Assembly (NCBI RefSeq): GCF_020005165.1
Contig: NZ_JAHCLT010000001.1
Coordinates: 1,116,001 to 1,180,000 of the forward strand
Length of the DNA stretch: 64,000 nucleotides
Source: Kangiella taiwanensis
Lineage (GTDB): Bacteria > Pseudomonadota > Gammaproteobacteria > Enterobacterales > Kangiellaceae
Direction of reading: 5' to 3'
Of the stretch, positions 7,011 through 37,625 are shown piece by piece (within the stretch, counting starts at the first letter, position 1; each line of letters opens with the position of its first letter). The notes under the pieces are model-generated. The model saw only the letters and a list, made by a program, of their open reading frames with translations, had not been told where the DNA came from and did not search any database. The position numbers and the translations under genes are program-made.

Positions 7011-8273
7011 TTAATCCCAAGAAAGGGCGCCACCAGTTTGATACTCGATAACGCGTGTTTCGAAGAAGTTTTTCTCTTTCTTCAAGTCCATGATTTCGCT
7101 CATCCATGGGAATGGGTTTGAGACGTTTTTGAACTGTGCAGGAAGGCCAAGCTGAGCTAGACGACGGTTACAGATGAACTGTAAGTACTCTTCCATCATG
7201 TTGGCGTTCATGCCTAATACGCCGCGTGGCATAGTGTCACGTGCGTATTCGATTTCAAGCTGTGTACCTTCAAGAATCATTTGGATCACTTCTTGTTGGA
7301 ACTCTTCAGTCCACAAGTGTGGGTTTTCCAGTTTGATTTGGTTAATCACGTCAACACCGAAGTTCAGGTGCATAGACTCGTCACGCAGAATGTATTGGAA
7401 TTGCTCAGCAACACCAGTCATCTTGTTACGACGACCCATTGATAGGATTTGCGTAAAGCCACAGTAGAAGAAGACACCTTCAGTGACGCAGTAGAAACCG
7501 ATGAGGTTGCGTAGCAATTCTTGATCCGATTCTGGCGTACCTGTGGTGAACGCTGGGTTTGAAATACCTTGAGTGTGCTTAATACTCCAAGCGGCTTTTT
7601 TAGCGATGCTTGGAACTTCGCGGTACATGTTGAAGACTTCCGCTTCGTCCATGCCTAAAGACTCGATACAGTACTGATATGCGTGCGTGTGAATTGCTTC
7701 TTCAAACGCTTGGCGCAAGATGTACTGGCGACACTCTGGGTTGGTAATCAAGCGGTAAATCGCAAGAACGAGGTTGTTAGCAACAAGCGAGTCGGCGGTT
7801 GAGAAGTAACCCAGAGAGCGCATGACGATACGACGCTCATCTTCAGTGAGACCGTTAGGATCTTTCCACGTGGCAACGTCTTTAGTCATGTTGACTTCTT
7901 GTGGCATCCAGTGGTTTGAGCAACCGTCTAAATACTTTTGCCATGCCCAGTCGTACTTGAACGGAACCAACTGGTTTAAGTCGGCACGACAGTTGATCAT
8001 CTTTTTGTCATCAACTTCAATACGCTCAGCACCCATCTCTAATTCTTCTAAACCTGGGGCGACGTCAAGCTTGTCTAGCGATGCTTGAGCTTTGGCAACG
8101 TTATCCAGAGCTTCAGGCTCAACATACTCTTCGGTTGTTGGAGCTGCTGGTTTCGCTGCTTCCGTAGCTTGTGGCGTTGGCTCTGGCTTTACCGCTGGCT
8201 CAGCTTTAGGCTGTTGTGGCGGTTGTTTTTGTTCCGCTTTTTCTTCTTTTTCGTAGTCGTCCCAGTTGAACAT
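7011..8273 (-). CDS. nrdB: Ribonucleoside-diphosphate reductase, beta subunit
   Basis: Small subunit of class I ribonucleotide reductase, which houses the diiron/tyrosyl-radical cofactor for dNTP synthesis. It has 420 residues. Ferritin-like helices carry the metal-site stretch [18 protein letters not shown], whose first tyrosine lies where the radical tyrosine is expected, and [10 protein letters not shown] for the second metal half-site. Residues about 10-60 are a Pro/Ala/Glu-rich linker, longer than in E. coli NrdB and similar in style to the Pseudomonas protein. Start supported by GAGG seven bases upstream. It follows nrdA with a 79-base gap. Confidence 0.95.
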
Positions 8274-8352
8274 ATTTCTACCTCATTAATTTCGCTGTGT
8301 TACACATTCGTTCTCAATGTCTAAAAGGGGAGCCGTGGCTCCCCGAATAGTA

Positions 8353-29298: not shown

Positions 29299-30546
29299 TT
29301 ATTTCAATAGTGGTGAATCCAGGGTGTCGGCAGGTGTGCCGATAAGGTCTTCCACAATGTCGTTTATCATGGCGAGGTCGATGTGCTTTTCTTTAATGAG
29401 TGCTCGGGTAAGGTCATCCAGAGATTTTTGGCCCTCGGTCTTTTCGCTTATTTCTTGCGCCAGTGCTTCCAGCAAAATGACTGCGCGCGCGGTTTGTTGC
29501 CCCGTTGAGGATTTGCCGCGAAGTTTTGTGATATCTTTACTCCAGTCTGCTAACCAGTCGAAAACACGTTTGCGTCTGTTTTCGCTCAAGCCACCGCTAC
29601 GGTAAAGGATTTCAATGGCGTAGTATTCAGCCAGGCCTTCCACCGCCCAGTCGTCGTTACCTTTATCGGTAATACCGGTTAGGGTGTGGAACAGTTCGTG
29701 AAGTAGGGTGCTAGTACCGTTTTCACTGACCATGGGGCGGTCAGCATGGAAAAATAGTGAGTTGGGGCCAGATAATCCACCGCGCCACATAGGATCTGGT
29801 GCGGTCACAATCAGTATTCTAGGGGGTAATTCATCCACCAATTCGCGAAGCTGTGGCCAATTCATCAGTATAAAACTGACTAAATCCATACGTTTTACAC
29901 CCATGTTTTGAGGCGCGCTGATGGCGATGTGAGTGCCATTTAATTTCTCCCGGCGGGTGCCAAGTTTACCCGCGATAAACCAGCCGATGGGGCGATCGAA
30001 GCGGCGTTCTGGATTATCAATAACAAAGTGTCGATCGTCTTTTTTAGGCCAGCCACTGTTGACGCTGTTCCAATGTTGAGGCAGTTCAAAGGTGAGAGTC
30101 GCCTTACTTTGGGCACCTGGTTTGGTACGTACCGTGGCCGGCGGAATAAGGTCGTCGCCACGGAATATGGCAAAATCTTTTTGATAAATAGAGTCATACT
30201 CGCCGGGGGCGCGTTCATGATTAAGGTTCACTTTGTAACTCAGGCGAGCGTTTTTTTCCGGTGGCTGCCAAATTGCTCGGCCATCTTTTAGTTCTAGCTC
30301 GCCATTGCCCTGAACGTTGCTATGAAAGCCCTCGTCGAGACGGAAATTAATACTATTGATCAGTTTGGCATCGGGCAGGGTAATTTGGACCTCTGCCTGC
30401 TCAGTCTCAGGATTAATGGTGGCGTGGTATTGCAACTGATACGTTTTTGGCTGCTTGGCCTTGGTTGTCATTACAGTTAGCAGGCACAATGAAATCAATA
30501 GCAGCCCTGAGCGAAATAACAGCCCTGAGCGGAATAACATGTACAT
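29299..30546 (-). CDS. Secreted HExxH metallopeptidase-like protein
   Basis: Protein of 415 residues with an N-terminal signal peptide, a beta-rich region (about 35-200) and a gluzincin-like zinc site: H283-E-L-F-H287 and a third ligand candidate E303 in AVEGLAEYYA. This resembles M1/M61-type peptidases acting outside the cytoplasm. The signal peptide contains a six-residue tandem duplication (LFRSGL twice). No co-oriented neighbour within 270 bases. Substrate unknown. Confidence 0.7.
   Translation of the reverse strand: MYMLFRSGLLFRSGLLLISLCLLTVMTTKAKQPKTYQLQYHATINPETEQAEVQITLPDAKLINSINFRLDEGFHSNVQGNGELELKDGRAIWQPPEKNARLSYKVNLNHERAPGEYDSIYQKDFAIFRGDDLIPPATVRTKPGAQSKATLTFELPQHWNSVNSGWPKKDDRHFVIDNPERRFDRPIGWFIAGKLGTRREKLNGTHIAISAPQNMGVKRMDLVSFILMNWPQLRELVDELPPRILIVTAPDPMWRGGLSGPNSLFFHADRPMVSENGTSTLLHELFHTLTGITDKGNDDWAVEGLAEYYAIEILYRSGGLSENRRKRVFDWLADWSKDITKLRGKSSTGQQTARAVILLEALAQEISEKTEGQKSLDDLTRALIKEKHIDLAMINDIVEDLIGTPADTLDSPLLK
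30502..30537 (-). repeat. 18-bp tandem duplication inside a signal peptide
   Basis: Two 18-base copies (30502-30519 and 30520-30537) differ at one position and keep the reading frame. Confidence 0.95.
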
Positions 30547-30707
30547 AGATAGATAGCTCCCTATGTATCGATTAACGATAAGATGTTACGAATGCATCTA
30601 AGGTTGCGTGATTTAGCGATTGGTATCTACAGCTGCGATCACATTTTTTGTTAAATAAGGTAAAACTGTTGTCACGGTATTGTGTTATTTTTCGTGCCGC
30701 GTTGATG

Positions 30708-30803
30708 CTAGCTTAGTTAAGGCTTTAGGGAGCTGAGCTAGTAATAATAATTCTTAGTAAAGTTGTGAGGGTGTAAGCCCCAAACTTTGCTTGGGGCTTT
30801 TTT
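30708..30803 (+). ncRNA. Candidate small RNA
   Basis: In the 272-base gene-free interval 30547-30818, an 11-bp stem with two G-U pairs (30708-30718 with 30731-30741, loop 12) is followed by an AT-rich single-stranded stretch and a strong terminator. No rightward gene precedes the terminator, which suggests an independent transcript. No clear promoter was identified. Confidence 0.35.
30775..30803 (+). terminator. Rightward terminator without an upstream gene
   Basis: AAGCCCCAA (30775-30783) pairs with TTGGGGCTT (30791-30799), followed by T-run to 30803. The T-run is only on the plus strand. Confidence 0.75.
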
Positions 30804-30818
30804 GTGCGTGCTGACCTT

Positions 30819-32543
30819 TTATATTGACTTCTTTGTAAGCTTTATCGCCAAGTCCTGAGCGAAACCACACATGGTGAGGGTTGGGTTCCAGGAGCCTGAG
30901 GTTGGGAAAATTCCTGCACCCGTGACGTAGACATTGTTCACGCCATGTGGGCGGTAGTCTAAACCAACCACAGAGCTTTCGGGATCTTCGCCTGCCCAGA
31001 TTTGTGAGGCTTCGTGGACGATGATGTTGAGGCGGATTTGGTCGATAGGTGGTTTGTCTGTGGTCCAGTAGCCGCTACCATCTGGGGTGTCGATCCAGTA
31101 TTCGACCTCAGGTGTGGTGTCGTCAGACGTGGCTAACGCTGCGATGGTTTGGTAGGTGGCGGTGTCGAGTTGATCCCACAGGGCTTTTTCTTCGTTGCCG
31201 AGAATTAATTGTAGCGAGATGTTGGTCGTTGGGTCTTCGCCTTTGTTGAGCTTGATCCAGTTGTCACTGTTCTTTTCGCTAATTTCTCCTAGGGTTGCGC
31301 AGACAAAGACGACGTAGTCTTCCGAGCCGATAAGCTGCTGCATGGTGGGTGCGGCGGCAGCATCGGGGCACTCACGCGCAGTGGTGACTTTGTCTTGTTC
31401 AGGGTTAGTTTCGGCGAAGACGCTGGCTTGAACGTGATACTGGTAGCCCGAATCGTCTTTGCCGTCGAGATACACGGCGCCGATTTCTAAGTCCGAGAGG
31501 TCTTTATAGGCGGAGCGTTTAACTCGGGCGGTGACGTGGGACATGAAGTGGCCTGTGTAGCGTTGGCCTGCGTTTGGTAGTTGGTCGCCGAACGAGTTCA
31601 TGAGCAAGGTCGCTGGCGGAATCGCGCCCATGGCGAGAATGATTTGGGCGCTGGATACATTGAGGGTGCCACGATCAGTGTCGATAGCGATGACGGTTCC
31701 TTTGTCGTCATGCAGAAGTTCTTGCACTACACACTGGTCAACGATGGTCAGTTCGGTGGCTTTGCCTTCTTTCGCCAGTTGTTGTTGGCGCTGGTGAATA
31801 TTAAGTAGCGTACCTACGGTTGAATACTTATAAAACTTGACGGTTTTCCACTCGGAGTTATCGACGGCGATGGGCGCGGGATAGGCGTTTTCCGCGGATG
31901 GCACAAAGTCTTTAAAGTTCTTCGCGATATTTTGATCGAGCTGGGCTTGTAGGTTAGCGTAGACGCCATCGTTAATCTGGTCCATCGAAGTGACGTGTAG
32001 AAATTCTTTCGCTCGTGGCCAGAAATCAGGCTCAAGCGTGGTATCGATCATGGACTGAGGCCAGTCGCGCATTAGATCTGGTGATGGAGAAGGGCTCCAT
32101 GCGCTCCAGTAAGTCGAACGTCCGCCGACCACGGGAATGTAACCGGCTTGGAAGAACTCAGGTGCTGTGGTGACCATTTCAGTGGTGCGTGACCAAGGAT
32201 ACGTCGTCGGTGGTGAGCCAGTTGTCGCGGCAAACGCATCGGGTAGCATTTGATAATGCACGGGGAGCCAGAAGCCGCCACGCTCAAGCACTAAGATTTT
32301 CGCACTTGGGTTTTCTTTGTAAATTTGATCGATAAAGGCCACGCCCGTTGGGCCAGTACCAATCACGATGTAGTCATAGACTTGGTTAACGATGGACTTC
32401 CAGTCGCACTGTGACGCAAAAAACGCGTTGCCCGCGATTTGGTCGGCGCTCGCGCCTTGAGGCCCGGGAACGGGATAGCCCTGACTTTCGCCTGCTGGCT
32501 CGGGATCGACTCCTTTGACAAACTTACTGTAGTTAAACGTCAT
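30819..32543 (-). CDS. GMC family FAD-dependent oxidoreductase
   Basis: Protein of 574 residues. The FAD-binding loop GTGPTG is at residues 62-67 with LERGGFW ending the second strand. The C-terminal family block reads HEASQIWAGEDPESSVVGLD, then YVTGAGIFPTSGSWNPTL. The usual HPMGT is altered to HEASQ, keeping the histidine. The group oxidises alcohols, sugars or sterols, and the substrate cannot be told. No Sec or Tat signal peptide is obvious. Monocistronic, with no GMC gamma-subunit gene next to it. Confidence 0.85.
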   Translation of the reverse strand: MTFNYSKFVKGVDPEPAGESQGYPVPGPQGASADQIAGNAFFASQCDWKSIVNQVYDYIVIGTGPTGVAFIDQIYKENPSAKILVLERGGFWLPVHYQMLPDAFAATTGSPPTTYPWSRTTEMVTTAPEFFQAGYIPVVGGRSTYWSAWSPSPSPDLMRDWPQSMIDTTLEPDFWPRAKEFLHVTSMDQINDGVYANLQAQLDQNIAKNFKDFVPSAENAYPAPIAVDNSEWKTVKFYKYSTVGTLLNIHQRQQQLAKEGKATELTIVDQCVVQELLHDDKGTVIAIDTDRGTLNVSSAQIILAMGAIPPATLLMNSFGDQLPNAGQRYTGHFMSHVTARVKRSAYKDLSDLEIGAVYLDGKDDSGYQYHVQASVFAETNPEQDKVTTARECPDAAAAPTMQQLIGSEDYVVFVCATLGEISEKNSDNWIKLNKGEDPTTNISLQLILGNEEKALWDQLDTATYQTIAALATSDDTTPEVEYWIDTPDGSGYWTTDKPPIDQIRLNIIVHEASQIWAGEDPESSVVGLDYRPHGVNNVYVTGAGIFPTSGSWNPTLTMCGFAQDLAIKLTKKSI

Positions 32544-32793
32544 TCGATGATTCCTTCTATGCTATATGGTATTGATGATTATTATTTTGCTAGCTTTAGA
32601 AGGGGGGTATGGATCGTTTTCTGCATCCCTTCAGAAAACTAGATTTTTTGAGTATAGCAACAGAAAAGTAAGATAAACAAAGGGTAATTCACTGTTCGGA
32701 TTAGTCTAATGCAGAAGGGTATTAAATCGAGTGTTTTAGCCATCAATTAAAGCGTATAAGCCTTAACTGGTGGTGGTTTATATAATTGTAATG

Positions 32794-33930
32794 TTACTTT
32801 TTTATTCTTCGTAGAAGCTCTGAATACCAGTGAGCATATCCATCTTCTGATAATTTTTCTTCGAGGGTTTTGCCACAGTGTCTATTGCTTAGGTTATAAC
32901 CATTGTTGATATGCTGGGCTAATCTAGGTAGCTCGGCTTCTTTGTCTCCATATTCAGTAGGGCTATGAAAAACTATAGGCGTTTTACAACCGTTATATTC
33001 ATAGTTGCAGTATGCTTTGTTGGGATCTAAGCCTAAACTAAATAATGCTTCGAGGTCATCGTCAGAAAAGTATTGCATTGTACAGCCTAGTGCTACACCA
33101 CTTGGGGCAACCCAATCGAAAGCTTCTTTATAGTTAACGACTTTTGCCACCTCGTAATGTTTAAGCATTATAGCTTTTGAAAAAGGTGGAGATTTTATAT
33201 ATTTCCCTTTAATTTCCTTCGATAGGTCTACATCATTGTTCGCAATATATTTTTTTATCTGCTCTATATGTCCGTAGCCAATCGCGTGGAAAAAGTCCTC
33301 TTCGGTTTTTATTGGACGCTTATCAATAGTTGAAAGTAATTGTTTTACATCAGAGTTTTTTACATCAAGAGTGTTTCCAATAGTAATGACATCGCCGTCA
33401 ATGGTATAGGGAGGAAGTTCGAGGTTTTCTTGCGTTTGGTGTTTGTGACCTAATAACACTCTTCCGCTAATATCAAAGTGTACATCTTCGCATGGGTCGT
33501 AGAGATAATTATTTAATTGGTACTTAGGGTCATTGGATGTTTTAAATTGCGTTGAGCAACCAATATAGGGTGAAATGTTGATAAAAACAGAAATGTCTTG
33601 TTGGAACCTTTGTTCCAGCATCTTATAAGCAAAAATAATCTTTTCTGCTGAATTATAGGGTAGGTCGTTTAATTGGTTCCCTATATCCATTGCAGGGTAA
33701 GGCGCACCAAGTTGTTGACCTTTGATGGAGCGATACTCTGCCAACTGATTTTTTGTTGGCTTTAGGATGCTAACAGGGTAATCAGCCCAGTTGACTGTCA
33801 TCATTTCGCCGGGCTTTAACTCGCTAATTCTTATCTGTACATGAGGAGCATCAATCCACTCTGTACTATCGTGGTTAGCATGCGTAAGTGTTGCAGTTAG
33901 GCAGAGCAAAGCTCCAATCAATGTTTTCAA
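32794..33930 (-). CDS. Secreted Rieske-fold protein lacking the cluster ligands, with ankyrin-like tail
   Basis: Protein of 378 residues with a signal peptide (1-18). Residues 30-190 follow the bc1 Rieske subunit: LKPGEMMTVNWADYPVSI, then box 1 SPYIGC (120-125) where CTHLGC is expected, box 2 DPCEDV (145-150) where CPCHGS is expected, and FDISGRV...LELPPYTIDGDVITIG. The two Cys and two His that hold [2Fe-2S] are replaced by S120, Y122, D145 and E148, while the disulfide pair C125/C147 is kept. Residues about 208-378 look like degenerate ankyrin repeats. It overlaps the upstream lipoprotein gene by four bases. A non-redox binding role is inferred. Confidence 0.75.
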   Translation of the reverse strand: MKTLIGALLCLTATLTHANHDSTEWIDAPHVQIRISELKPGEMMTVNWADYPVSILKPTKNQLAEYRSIKGQQLGAPYPAMDIGNQLNDLPYNSAEKIIFAYKMLEQRFQQDISVFINISPYIGCSTQFKTSNDPKYQLNNYLYDPCEDVHFDISGRVLLGHKHQTQENLELPPYTIDGDVITIGNTLDVKNSDVKQLLSTIDKRPIKTEEDFFHAIGYGHIEQIKKYIANNDVDLSKEIKGKYIKSPPFSKAIMLKHYEVAKVVNYKEAFDWVAPSGVALGCTMQYFSDDDLEALFSLGLDPNKAYCNYEYNGCKTPIVFHSPTEYGDKEAELPRLAQHINNGYNLSNRHCGKTLEEKLSEDGYAHWYSELLRRIKK

Positions 33931-34406
33931 AGACAGCTTTCCTTATGCACCACGCCAATTAGCTCAGAGGGAATAAGCATGTCGACGTCGTCGCCCTCTT
34001 CTGGCGCGCGCATGTCGTATTCACCTTTAACTTCAAACAGAAGCTTTTGCTTCGCTTCGTCTTTGAGCGCGAGGTAGGTTGCTTCGAGTTCGTAGTAGTT
34101 GCCTTCTTGTGCGACAGGGTAAGTTTGGTTATTGCTACAGTCAGTGAAGGTGGCGTTGTCGGTGTCGTAGACGTATAAGCCTTTTTTGATCTCGGTGGTA
34201 CCAGCCACGGGTTCTTCTACTGCCTCCGGCTGAGTTTCGGTTGTGTCAGATCCTTCAGAGCTGACATCTTCGTCAGTCTGAACTTGCTCTTGTTCGCTTT
34301 CTGCGGGCGGTTGCTGTTGCGGCTTTGGGTCTTCAGAGCAGCCGTATAGTGCGCCTAGCGCTAGAATCGTAATCAGACTTTTAGATAATGTTTGAGAAAG
34401 TGCCAT
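33927..34406 (-). CDS. Lipoprotein with acidic linker
   Basis: Protein of 159 residues. The lipobox LYGC puts the lipidated cysteine near residue 23. It is followed by an acidic Gln/Glu/Pro-rich linker (about 25-70) and a compact C-terminal domain starting GLYVYDTDNATFTDC, with a final cysteine near the end that could form a disulfide. The domain vaguely resembles small NlpE-type envelope domains, with low certainty. It is coupled by an ATGA overlap to the Rieske-like gene and lies 13 bases after the isoaspartyl peptidase gene. Confidence 0.65.
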   Translation of the reverse strand: MALSQTLSKSLITILALGALYGCSEDPKPQQQPPAESEQEQVQTDEDVSSEGSDTTETQPEAVEEPVAGTTEIKKGLYVYDTDNATFTDCSNNQTYPVAQEGNYYELEATYLALKDEAKQKLLFEVKGEYDMRAPEEGDDVDMLIPSELIGVVHKESCL

Positions 34407-34419
34407 GGTGAATCGCTCT

Positions 34420-35442
34420 TTATTCGCCTTTGTAAATCTTGATTGCGGCTTGGCCGTTGCTGGTTTTCCAGCCGTGGTACATGCCTTCGGTATTGAAACT
34501 TGCCATGATGTTGGCGCCTGCGTCTAAGCCGATAACGCCGCCGTCACCACCCATCTCGACCAGTTTGTCATGAATTACTTCGTCGGCAGACTCTTGAATG
34601 CCTTGGCGCTTGTATTTCACACGTGCGCAAATGTCGTAGGTCACGGCAGCACGGATAAAGTATTCGCCGTGGCCTGTGGCGGACACACCGCAGTTTTTGT
34701 CGGCGTAAGTTCCTGCACCAATTACTGGCGAATCTCCAATACGGCCATAGCGTTTGTTGGTCATGCCACCTGTGGATGTTGCTGCAGCGATGTTACCGTC
34801 TTTGTCGAGGGCTACTGCGCCGACTGTGCCGAACTTAGAATTCTTGGCTTCGTCTTCTGAAAGCTCAGGCTTTTCTGGCGTGTGTTTTAAGACTTTTTCT
34901 AGCTGGTCCCAGCGGCGCTGAGTGAAGAAGTATTTAGTATCAACTAGTTCAAAGCCTTGCTCTTTAGCAAACTCTTCCGCGCCTTCGCGCGCCATCATGA
35001 CGTGAACCGAGTCAGTGCGAACCGTGTCCGCTAATAAAATCGGGTTTTTGATATGGCTGACGCCAGCGATAGCGCCTGCGGATAAATCTTTGCTGTACAT
35101 AATTGAGGCATCCAGTTCGTTAACGCCTTCGTGGGTAAATACGGCGCCTTTGCCAGCGTTAAAGAGGGGAGAGTCTTCCATAATGACGATGGACGCTTTG
35201 ACAGCGTCAATACTGCTGCCGCCTTGTTCCAATACCGCGTAGCCTGCGTTTAAGGCTTCATCCAACTTTTCACGATACGCCTTTTCAGCTTCCGGCGTCA
35301 TGTTCTTTTTCAGGATAGTGCCTGCGCCACCGTGAATCACTAGGCCATAAGGGCGTTCAGGTTTTGTCGCCAATGCACTGAAACTTGCTGCGAGGAGAGC
35401 GGTTAATGTCAATGTTTTTAGTAATTTGGTCATAATCGGCAT
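34420..35442 (-). CDS. Periplasmic isoaspartyl peptidase/L-asparaginase (Ntn hydrolase)
   Basis: Protein of 340 residues with a Sec signal peptide (to about residue 26, SALA). The nucleophile is T206 in FGTVGAVALD, which becomes N-terminal after autocleavage. The upstream GGAGTI and downstream TSTGGMTNKRYGRIGDSP motifs complete the family site. It removes isoaspartyl residues from peptides or hydrolyses asparagine. A second in-frame ATG lies nine bases downstream. First gene of a likely three-gene operon. Confidence 0.88.
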   Translation of the reverse strand: MPIMTKLLKTLTLTALLAASFSALATKPERPYGLVIHGGAGTILKKNMTPEAEKAYREKLDEALNAGYAVLEQGGSSIDAVKASIVIMEDSPLFNAGKGAVFTHEGVNELDASIMYSKDLSAGAIAGVSHIKNPILLADTVRTDSVHVMMAREGAEEFAKEQGFELVDTKYFFTQRRWDQLEKVLKHTPEKPELSEDEAKNSKFGTVGAVALDKDGNIAAATSTGGMTNKRYGRIGDSPVIGAGTYADKNCGVSATGHGEYFIRAAVTYDICARVKYKRQGIQESADEVIHDKLVEMGGDGGVIGLDAGANIMASFNTEGMYHGWKTSNGQAAIKIYKGE

Positions 35443-35551
35443 ATTTAATTTTTATTGAAGTTTTAACGTTCTATCACATGGTAAGCGCGTTGTTAACTCT
35501 GATCTGTGATGGTTCGCAGAATTGAGGAAGTTTCACTTGATTTTGATGCGC

Positions 35552-35568
35552 ATGAGAATTATTCTCAT
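35552..35568. promoter_or_regulatory. Perfect Fur-type palindrome
   Basis: ATGAGAAT-T-ATTCTCAT is a perfect palindrome that fits the 7-1-7 Fur model in both halves except for the usual G-for-T variant. It lies 58-74 bases before the start chosen for the following gene. Confidence 0.75.
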
Positions 35569-35625
35569 TTGAGGGTTTGGGCAATGCTGTTTTATAACAA
35601 TACGATTACCGAAGGAGAAAGCAGG

Positions 35626-35874
35626 ATGATTCATTACATGGTGAATGCGTGGCTGGATAAACGTCAGCCGCACTTGGAATTAGTGGAGCAAAATAGCGGG
35701 CAGGTAGTCCGTCGTTGGCAAGGGCGAAGGTTGCAGGAGCTGTTTAACTCTGGCCTGATTAGTTACCAAGAGTTGCAAACAAGCAGCCAGACGCAACTAA
35801 AAAAGCTAGTGAAAGCCTTGATTCTGGAGGTGACCTGCGAAGAGTTGTGCGGGCGCTGCTTGTATCAAAGCTGA
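35626..35874 (+). CDS. Small Fur-boxed protein with C-terminal cysteines
   Basis: Protein of 82 residues from the ATG at 35626, which has AAGGAG nine bases upstream. The frame is open to a GTG at 35506, but that start would place the Fur palindrome inside the gene. Basic, helical, no signal peptide. The C-terminal end has three cysteines in VTCEELCGRCLYQS, a possible metal or cluster site. Probably iron-regulated. No family recognised. Confidence 0.6.
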   Translation: MIHYMVNAWLDKRQPHLELVEQNSGQVVRRWQGRRLQELFNSGLISYQELQTSSQTQLKKLVKALILEVTCEELCGRCLYQS

Positions 35875-35909
35875 TTTTGTAAGAGGTCAATTTGTAAGAG
35901 CTCAGTAAG

Positions 35910-36560
35910 TTAATCGTCTTTTGATTGCTCAAGCTCGCTTACGAAGGGCGCGTCGGCTTGTGCGAGGTTGGCGCGATTAACCAGATGACAAAATAGCTCA
36001 GCAGTTTTGGTCGCGTCATACAGTGCTGAGTGGGCTTCTTTCTGGCTAAACGCAATCTCTGCGCGTTTACAAGCCTGAGCTAACACCGTATGGCCCAGCA
36101 TCAAGGCTGATAAGGATGCGGTGTCGAAACTGGTGAACGGGTGGAACGGGCTGCGCTTGATGTTGGCGCGCTCAACTGCGGCATTAAGAAAGCTTTGATC
36201 GAACCAAGCGTTATGGCCGACTAAAACACAGCGGTTACAGTCGGCTTCTTTCTGCTCGTTACGTAAACCTTTGAATATCGACTTAAGTGCTTCTTCTTCG
36301 CTGACAGCGTTACGCAACGGATTGTCAGGATCGATGCCGGTAAACTCTAACGCTCGTTGCTCAATATTAGCGCCTTCAAACGGTTCGACGTTGAAGTGGT
36401 AGCTTTTATGCACTTCAAGTTGGCCGTCGTCGTTATATCGTGTGGTGACGGCTGCAATTTCGAGTAGGGCGTCGGTTTGGGCATTAAAACCACCCGTTTC
36501 AACATCCACCACAACTGGGTAAAAGCCACGAAAACGGTAATTCAAAGGCAAGTTGAGCAT
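35910..36560 (-). CDS. rnt: Ribonuclease T
   Basis: DEDD-family 3'-5' exoribonuclease of 216 residues that trims tRNA and other stable RNAs. Acidic residues D19 and E21 in VVDVETGGF, the [16 protein letters not shown] motif and the final [14 protein letters not shown] (catalytic H and D) are present. Length is as usual. It lies 24 bases downstream of pyrC on the same strand, probably co-transcribed. Confidence 0.93.
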
Positions 36561-36584
36561 TGAGAATCCTTAGTCTGTGTTGGA

Positions 36585-37625
36585 CTATTGATCAGCTTTA
36601 AGCTTCCATTGAAGCGTTTCGTCAGCGCAGAAAGGCACCAGCTTATCGTTACCTAGGCACAGGTGCTTAGGTACTTTCCACTCGTCTTTAACTAAAGTAA
36701 TGTGCTCTTGATTGCGTGGCAGACCATAGAAATCTGGGCCATGGAAACTGGCGAAACCCTCTAAACGATCAAGTTTATCCATCATTTCAAACGCCTCAGC
36801 ATAAAGCTCTATCGCAGCGTAAGCGGTATAAACACCCGCACAACCGCAAGCGGCTTCTTTTTTGCTCTTGGCGTGTGGCGCGCTGTCTGTGCCCAAGAAA
36901 AACTTCGGTGAGCCTGAAGTTGCTGCGACTAACAATGCCGCTTGGTGTTCTTGACGCTTAAGGATTGGTAAGCAGTATAAGTGTGGGCGAATGCCGCCAA
37001 CCAGCATGTCGTTGCGATTTAACAGCAAGTGGTGTGCCGTAATCGTCGCTGCTACGTTTGGGCCTTGCTCGTTCACGAATTCAACCGCGTCTTTGGTTGT
37101 AATGTGCTCTAGAACGACTTTTAAGTTGGGAAACTTTTCGACCACAGGGCGTAACTTGGTGTCGATAAAGACTTTTTCGCGGTCGAAAATGTCGATATCG
37201 GCGTCCGTTACTTCGCCGTGAACCAATAGCGGCATACCGAGTTCCGCCATCTTTTCGAACACGGGGTAAGCGTTTTCGATATCGGTCAAGCCTGAGTCTG
37301 AGTTGGTCGTCGCGCCAGCAGGGTACAACTTACAGGCCTTAACAAAGCCGCTTTTAACCGCTGCTTCGATATCTTCAGGGCTGGTGTTGTCCGTCAAGTA
37401 CAAAGTCATTAACGGCTCGAAGTCCATACTTTCCGTGGTATGGCGCATAATCGCGTTGCGATAATCGTCAGCTTGCTCGACATTAGTCACTGGAGGAACA
37501 AGGTTTGGCATAACGATTGCGCGGGCAAATTGCTTGGCAGCGTCTTTTACCGTGTGCTGCAAGGCTGCGCCAGAACGAAGGTGGATGTGCCAGTCGTCTG
37601 GACGAGTAATGGTCAATGTTTGCAT
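36585..37625 (-). CDS. pyrC: Dihydroorotase
   Basis: Third step of pyrimidine synthesis, cyclising carbamoyl-aspartate. Protein of 346 residues. Zinc ligands H13 and H15 in [10 protein letters not shown], the carboxylated lysine K99 in [23 protein letters not shown] and the catalytic aspartate in GTDSAPH are all present, which is the class II PyrC pattern. Followed by rnt. Confidence 0.95.

Follow-up and report, generated by a model that had tools for sequence, protein, structure and literature searches.

The gene at positions 32,794–33,930 (minus strand, 378 amino acids, TTG start) of the analyzed window, a stretch of 64,000 nucleotides from Kangiella taiwanensis, encodes a homolog of the bc1-type Rieske protein in which all four positions of the [2Fe-2S] ligands are occupied by other residues, while both cysteines of the disulfide are kept. 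The product is probably, though far from assuredly, a redox-dead, exported Rieske scaffold that binds another protein in the periplasm, encoded by an accessory gene.

The Rieske domain covers residues 28–187 (33,370–33,849, minus strand) and was assigned through TIGR01416, PDB and profile matches. Against TIGR01416 (bc1 Rieske), the protein gave an E value of 2.1e-14 over residues 5–185, with a score of 53.9 bits that lies below the curated cut-off of 97.4. A match to PDB entry 8smr_C, the bc1 Rieske of Pseudomonas, was obtained at E 3.4e-12. Both matches support the bc1-type layout proposed in the initial annotation. Additionally, a profile of three orthologs reached E 3.9e-15 in the PDB search and matched the host's own bc1 Rieske at E 1.5e-14. 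The Pfam search returned no family for the protein at E ≤ 10, neither Rieske, Rieske_2 nor ankyrin.

Box 1 reads SPYIGC (residues 120–125; 33,556–33,573, minus strand), with the ligand Cys replaced by Ser120, the ligand His by Tyr122, and the disulfide Cys125 kept. Box 2 reads DPCEDV (residues 145–150; 33,481–33,498, minus strand), with Asp145 and Glu148 at the ligand Cys and His positions and the disulfide Cys147 kept. The earlier statement that four ligands are replaced around a retained C125/C147 pair is therefore correct. The segment preceding box 1 is extra compared with the ordinary bc1 Rieske, and the ordinary Pro loop is lost, the sequence reading GHKHQ... at this place. An AlphaFold model built from five sequences had a mean pLDDT of 50.5, too low to be usable.

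To place these replacements in context, 100 distinct Rieske-like ORFs were collected from the fetched loci. Both boxes were intact in 86 of them and not in the other 14, a proportion that does not reflect natural frequency since the searches were aimed at the latter. The 14 ligandless proteins were aligned with 84 of the 86 ordinary ones, two being left out by length. All six residues (ligands and disulfide cysteines) were present in 84/84 ordinary Rieske proteins. In the ligandless set, the disulfide cysteines were found at 28/28 positions (each Cys in 14/14), and ligands at 1/56, the sole case being the box-2 His of the G036 protein. The other conserved positions of the tip were kept in 43/140 cases (31%) and those of the remaining domain in 227/490 (46%), counts in which the Vibrio row is a fragment and four divergent members lower the figure for the body. 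For the window protein alone, the corresponding values were 3/10 and 18/35. These proportions indicate that the ligands were singled out for loss. Outside the ligands, the tip has diverged moderately more than the body, chiefly in the Pro loop. The initial annotation of "exactly" four lost ligands is thus slightly too narrow: the selective loss of the ligands holds, but the Pro loop is also largely gone, with 9/56 cells kept at its four conserved positions.

In the numbering of the host bc1 Rieske, the core positions Pro81, Gly171, Arg172 and Pro187 were retained in 13, 14, 13 and 14 of the 14 proteins, respectively, and the tip positions Leu137 (box 1), Gly164, Ser165 (both box 2) and Pro178 in 3, 2, 1 and 3. 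Asp occupies the second ligand Cys position in 11/14. Six residue types were observed at the His position of box 1 and eight at that of box 2, and box 2 of the G012 protein has S and R; the box 1 of the Ruegeria, G023 and G027 proteins differs in length or spacing, making the aligned residues there unsure. As many other conserved positions have changed (227/490 kept), the Rieske fold is probable but not guaranteed.

A putative signal peptide was identified at residues 1–18 (33,877–33,930, minus strand; cut THA/NHD), with the same arrangement in the G009 and G012 orthologs. The call, LKTLIGALLCLTATLTHA/NHD, was made with a hydropathy script and visual inspection, and agrees with the export signal suggested previously. 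Beyond residue 60, the highest 19-residue hydropathy was 0.76, and no C-terminal membrane helix is present. The mature protein would be likely to reside in the periplasm.

The ankyrin-like tail comprises residues 188–378 (32,797–33,369, minus strand) and was recognized with a profile of three Kangiella tails. The tail of the window protein alone gave no Pfam match. The three-tail profile found ankyrins in the PDB, with a best E value of 2e-6 and mostly ankyrin or DARPin entries among the best 60 of 114 matches. The ankyrin-like character noted in the initial annotation was thus recovered, but the tail proved optional in the family, being of ankyrin type in 6/14 ligandless proteins. Ankyrin repeats are evident in the tails of G023, G027 and G820 (E 3.1e-7, 2.8e-6 and 1.1e-9, respectively). 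A profile comparison between the Kangiella tails and these other ankyrin tails gave a probability of 1.3, which is not significant; consequently, the Rieske-ankyrin fusions may not form one lineage. Four tail cysteines (C283, C308, C315 and C352) are invariant in the three Kangiella orthologs.

The ligandless set consists of the window protein and 13 relatives from Kangiellaceae, other genomes of the order, a Vibrio plasmid, and Ruegeria/Rhodobacteraceae. Full-length orthologs were detected in two others among the 61 genomes searched (its own included), with 60% identity in G009 and 36% in G012, the latter belonging to the same genus as the window; both are ligandless. Likely secreted ligandless Rieske proteins with ankyrin repeats were found in G023 and G027, from another genus of the family, and in G820, from another family of the order. 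The proteins of G640 and G042 are likely secreted and tail-less, and those of G036, G031 and three Ruegeria/Rhodobacteraceae records (L078–L080) are anchored and tail-less. The relative on plasmid P2 of Vibrio parahaemolyticus is an interrupted gene. The possibility that the window copy is merely a mutated Rieske is answered by these two full-length orthologs and 11 further relatives, all of which are ligandless as well. The Rieske assignment of the G027 protein rests on a profile built in this analysis (E 2.1e-7), since its match to TIGR01416 falls short of E 0.01.

Within the family, a ligandless member was present in 7/40 genomes, and in the genus the gene occurred in 3/20. Across 394 genomes of the order, 21 matched at E ≤ 1e-13, 6 of them with the Rieske-ankyrin form, and the secreted tail-less type was found in 2 at E ≤ 1e-18. 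The ligandless family is rare at the thresholds used, which weaker members would escape. The pattern DPC[EQ]DV matched in 3 of 398 genomes of the phylum, the window included; the match in G483 is not a Rieske, and that in G575 is without the Cys codon. A Rhodobacteraceae-type family search gave a match in 1/198 genomes (G1275), whose protein equals that of L078 and is hence not counted again. In the class (search with A4, 369 genomes), ordinary Rieske proteins dominated the results, of which the best 30 loci were examined.

Among phages, the Rieske part had no match, and viral contigs contained no relative detectable by the ortholog profile or the ordinary Rieske profile. The window protein matched 28 plasmid records; 16 of the best 20 are annotated as petA, and the Vibrio record was examined from the other four. 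Further plasmid searches added no ligandless copy among the matches read, a result based on the match lists. In a phylogenetic tree of 93 Rieske domains (13 ligandless), a single ligandless group appeared in 30% of 200 bootstrap trees, and the branches were very long. As judged from this tree, the ligandless proteins may have one origin or several.

In the window, the TTG start of the gene shares 4 bases with the end of an upstream lipoprotein gene carrying an NlpE C-terminal OB domain (33,927–34,406, minus strand), preceded in the same row by an Asparaginase_2 family gene (34,420–35,442, minus strand). A GMC oxidoreductase gene lies downstream (30,819–32,543, minus strand). No cytochrome b or c1 gene adjoins, these asparaginase, lipoprotein and GMC oxidoreductase genes being the neighbors. 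The G+C content of the ligandless Rieske gene is 38% vs 50–53% in the adjacent genes. The gene is missing from the close relative G006, where a stretch of some 250 bp and then the GMC gene come immediately after the lipoprotein gene. Both match what lies beyond the ligandless Rieske gene in the window, and they delimit an empty site bordered by the GMC gene. In G012, the ligandless Rieske gene lies on the same strand as the asparaginase gene, behind it after two other genes. The 361- and 365-aa ORFs at the corresponding place in G005 and G017 were rejected as an unrelated lipoprotein; they stand behind the asparaginase genes (L145, 2,936–4,021; L150, 6,235–7,332), near the place occupied in other genomes by the ligandless Rieske. 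The site behind the asparaginase gene seems to accommodate different accessory genes. Neighboring genes vary between lineages and suggest no pathway, and a promoter and terminator scan returned nothing bearing on the gene.

The upstream lipoprotein is short, its NlpE portion being limited to the C-terminal OB domain, and it changes fast, with 47% identity to G009 vs 92% for the asparaginase. A lipoprotein of about 185 amino acids that looks similar on reading was observed within a few kb from the Rieske-ankyrin gene in G009 and G023, which represent two genera (L043, 4,231–4,791; L084, 5,236–5,790). Elsewhere in the window, positions 29,299–30,546 showed a low-confidence match to M61 peptidases (E 0.054).

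Between the window and G009, the ligandless Rieske gene has a pN of 0.25, equal in the Rieske part and the tail, and a pS of 0.77, similar to the values for asparaginase (0.78) and PyrC (0.83) and higher than that for GMC (0.63). The gene is under purifying selection and is therefore a functional, fast-evolving gene; identity to G009 is 60%, vs 86–92% for the GMC oxidoreductase, asparaginase and PyrC. Its age is not datable owing to the saturation of pS.

The host encodes a separate, intact bc1 Rieske elsewhere, adjoining genes that were recognized by reading as those of cytochromes b and c1. With this intact gene in an apparent bc1 operon, the ligandless Rieske is hardly the respiratory subunit of the host. 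Some Kangiella genomes (G019, G005, G013 and G011; L015, L034, L035 and L036) carry another bc1-type Rieske gene, whose ligand motifs are intact, in addition to the first. Furthermore, box 2 of several Kangiella bc1 Rieske proteins (L037, L046, L169 and L170) is CACHGS instead of CPCHGS, with the ligands intact.

The ligandless Rieske gene is accessory and in places mobile. The copy in G042 (L155, ORF 7,652–8,191) is flanked by attC-like repeats at 7,553–7,660 and 8,180–8,298 within a row of small genes, through which more than 20 repeat copies extend; the attC naming was made by reading. This genome encodes an integron integrase, IntI, at 454 bits (cut-off 265), on a different contig, and integrases above the cut-off occur in 5/10 genomes, including ones with the Rieske gene outside arrays. 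On plasmid P2 of Vibrio, the Rieske-like gene (L166, 4,731–5,348) is unannotated, carries an in-frame stop, and lies amid 14 copies of a 79-nt repeat, in an array of small genes including GNAT and DUF3265. Ruegeria and a relative share a unit of some 760 bp, 86–87% identical, which is the sole match (E ≤ 1e-10) among three loci of about 16 kb, so that it sits in three unrelated sites. In G023 and G027, the islands holding the gene resembled cassette arrays, but no long repeat family is present in them. For the window copy, a hairpin scan of positions 30,001–36,600 identified no attC site or other mobile element, with a script that is insensitive, as it reported one site in L155 despite the more than 20 repeat copies there; chance-like single sites were reported in L154 and L137.

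Compared with PetA/ISP (TIGR01416), the window protein shares the homologous domain, the order of the boxes, the disulfide cysteines, and the FD..GRV and PPY motifs. It differs in having no [2Fe-2S] ligands, a lost Pro loop, an extra segment before box 1, a likely signal peptide replacing the membrane anchor, an ankyrin-like tail, and a location outside the bc1 operon. NirD, the small subunit of nitrite reductase (Rieske_2), also has a ligandless Rieske fold and is cytoplasmic, whereas the window protein returns no Pfam family. Exported ankyrin-repeat proteins are known in bacteria, and the window protein resembles them in placing ankyrin-type repeats after a likely signal for export, with the Rieske module as the difference. 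According to PMC12164590, PSB33/TEF5 contain a Rieske-like domain without residues for iron or cluster binding, and PSB33/TEF5/LIL8 of plants and algae are membrane proteins of the chloroplast whose C-terminus carries membrane helices; likened by description, the window protein is without such helices. Ligandless Rieske-like domains are thus already known, and the family described here is a new variant. No Rieske-ankyrin protein was found in the titles of the open-licence literature searched.

Several other explanations were weighed. The dead Rieske head might act on the bc1 complex as a decoy or modulator, either by occupying the genuine head's docking site on cytochrome b/c1 or by aiding assembly. 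The domain is of the bc1 type and the host bc1 is intact, but the positions Leu137, Gly164, Ser165 and Pro178 of the tip, which presumably touch cytochrome b, are mostly changed, a mild argument given that the non-ligand tip as a whole has changed only moderately more than the remaining domain (31% vs 46% kept). An N-terminal hydrophobic anchor is kept in G036, G031 and the Ruegeria members, with much ordinary tether sequence in G036, and PMC12164590 reports that TEF5, with its ligandless Rieske-like domain, interacts with photosystem subunits, offering a parallel in PSB33/TEF5 and photosystem II. The Kangiella form, however, would be anchorless after cleavage and has no bc1 gene adjoining, and we regard a bc1 role as unlikely. 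A role in the envelope as an immunity, anti-toxin or anti-phage protein, with spread in the form of gene cassettes, would fit the integron-like arrays, the single-gene unit, the sporadic presence, and the fast change of the protein. Nevertheless, no toxin or defense gene was recognized alongside by reading, the Kangiella copy stands in a metabolic gene row, and PADLOC, applied to 10/14 proteins, gave three matches, all to the ankyrin parts of relatives and none to the window protein; this role appears rather unlikely.

The kept disulfide could itself be the active element of a thiol-disulfide redox sensor, in keeping with its presence in 14/14 proteins and with the four invariant cysteines of the Kangiella tails. 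In ordinary Rieske proteins, however, the corresponding disulfide is structural, making a sensor improbable. A different metal site formed by the replacing Ser, Tyr, Asp and Glu is suggested by the recurrent Asp at the second ligand Cys, but the S and R in box 2 of G012 and the variety of residues at both His positions argue against it, and we consider such a site very improbable. The sporadic presence in the genus and the stop codon in the plasmid relative could point to a decaying, functionless bc1 Rieske copy; the open frame, a pN far under the saturated pS, and the conserved tail cysteines make decay scarcely credible for the window gene.

We favor the exported, redox-dead scaffold. A bc1-type Rieske head without its iron-sulfur cluster would have been re-used as a disulfide-locked scaffold. 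After export to the periplasm, its Rieske body, joined in this sub-family by the ankyrin-like repeats, would bind another protein. The role would be that of a non-catalytic binder, such as an adaptor, inhibitor or immunity-type protein. Periplasmic protein binding is the likeliest function in view of the likely export signal, the kept disulfide, the missing ligands and the ankyrin repeats. A broader proposal, which we hold only tentatively and consider doubtful, is that of a dispersed, cassette-borne family of periplasmic binders, in which a Rieske protein was captured by integrons or other mobile units, stripped of its cofactor and sometimes fused to ankyrin repeats, and would counter a partner in contact with the respiratory chain or the envelope, whether as decoy, inhibitor or immunity protein.

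Textbooks present the Rieske domain as an electron carrier, and naming by homology carries the risk that such genes are annotated as the iron-sulfur subunit of ubiquinol-cytochrome c reductase. In this family, an electron-carrying domain appears to have been converted to a binding role. If true, this would clearly exemplify the change of a redox domain into a binding scaffold, with the disulfide kept and the ligands dropped, partly fused to ankyrin repeats and partly mobile as a single gene.
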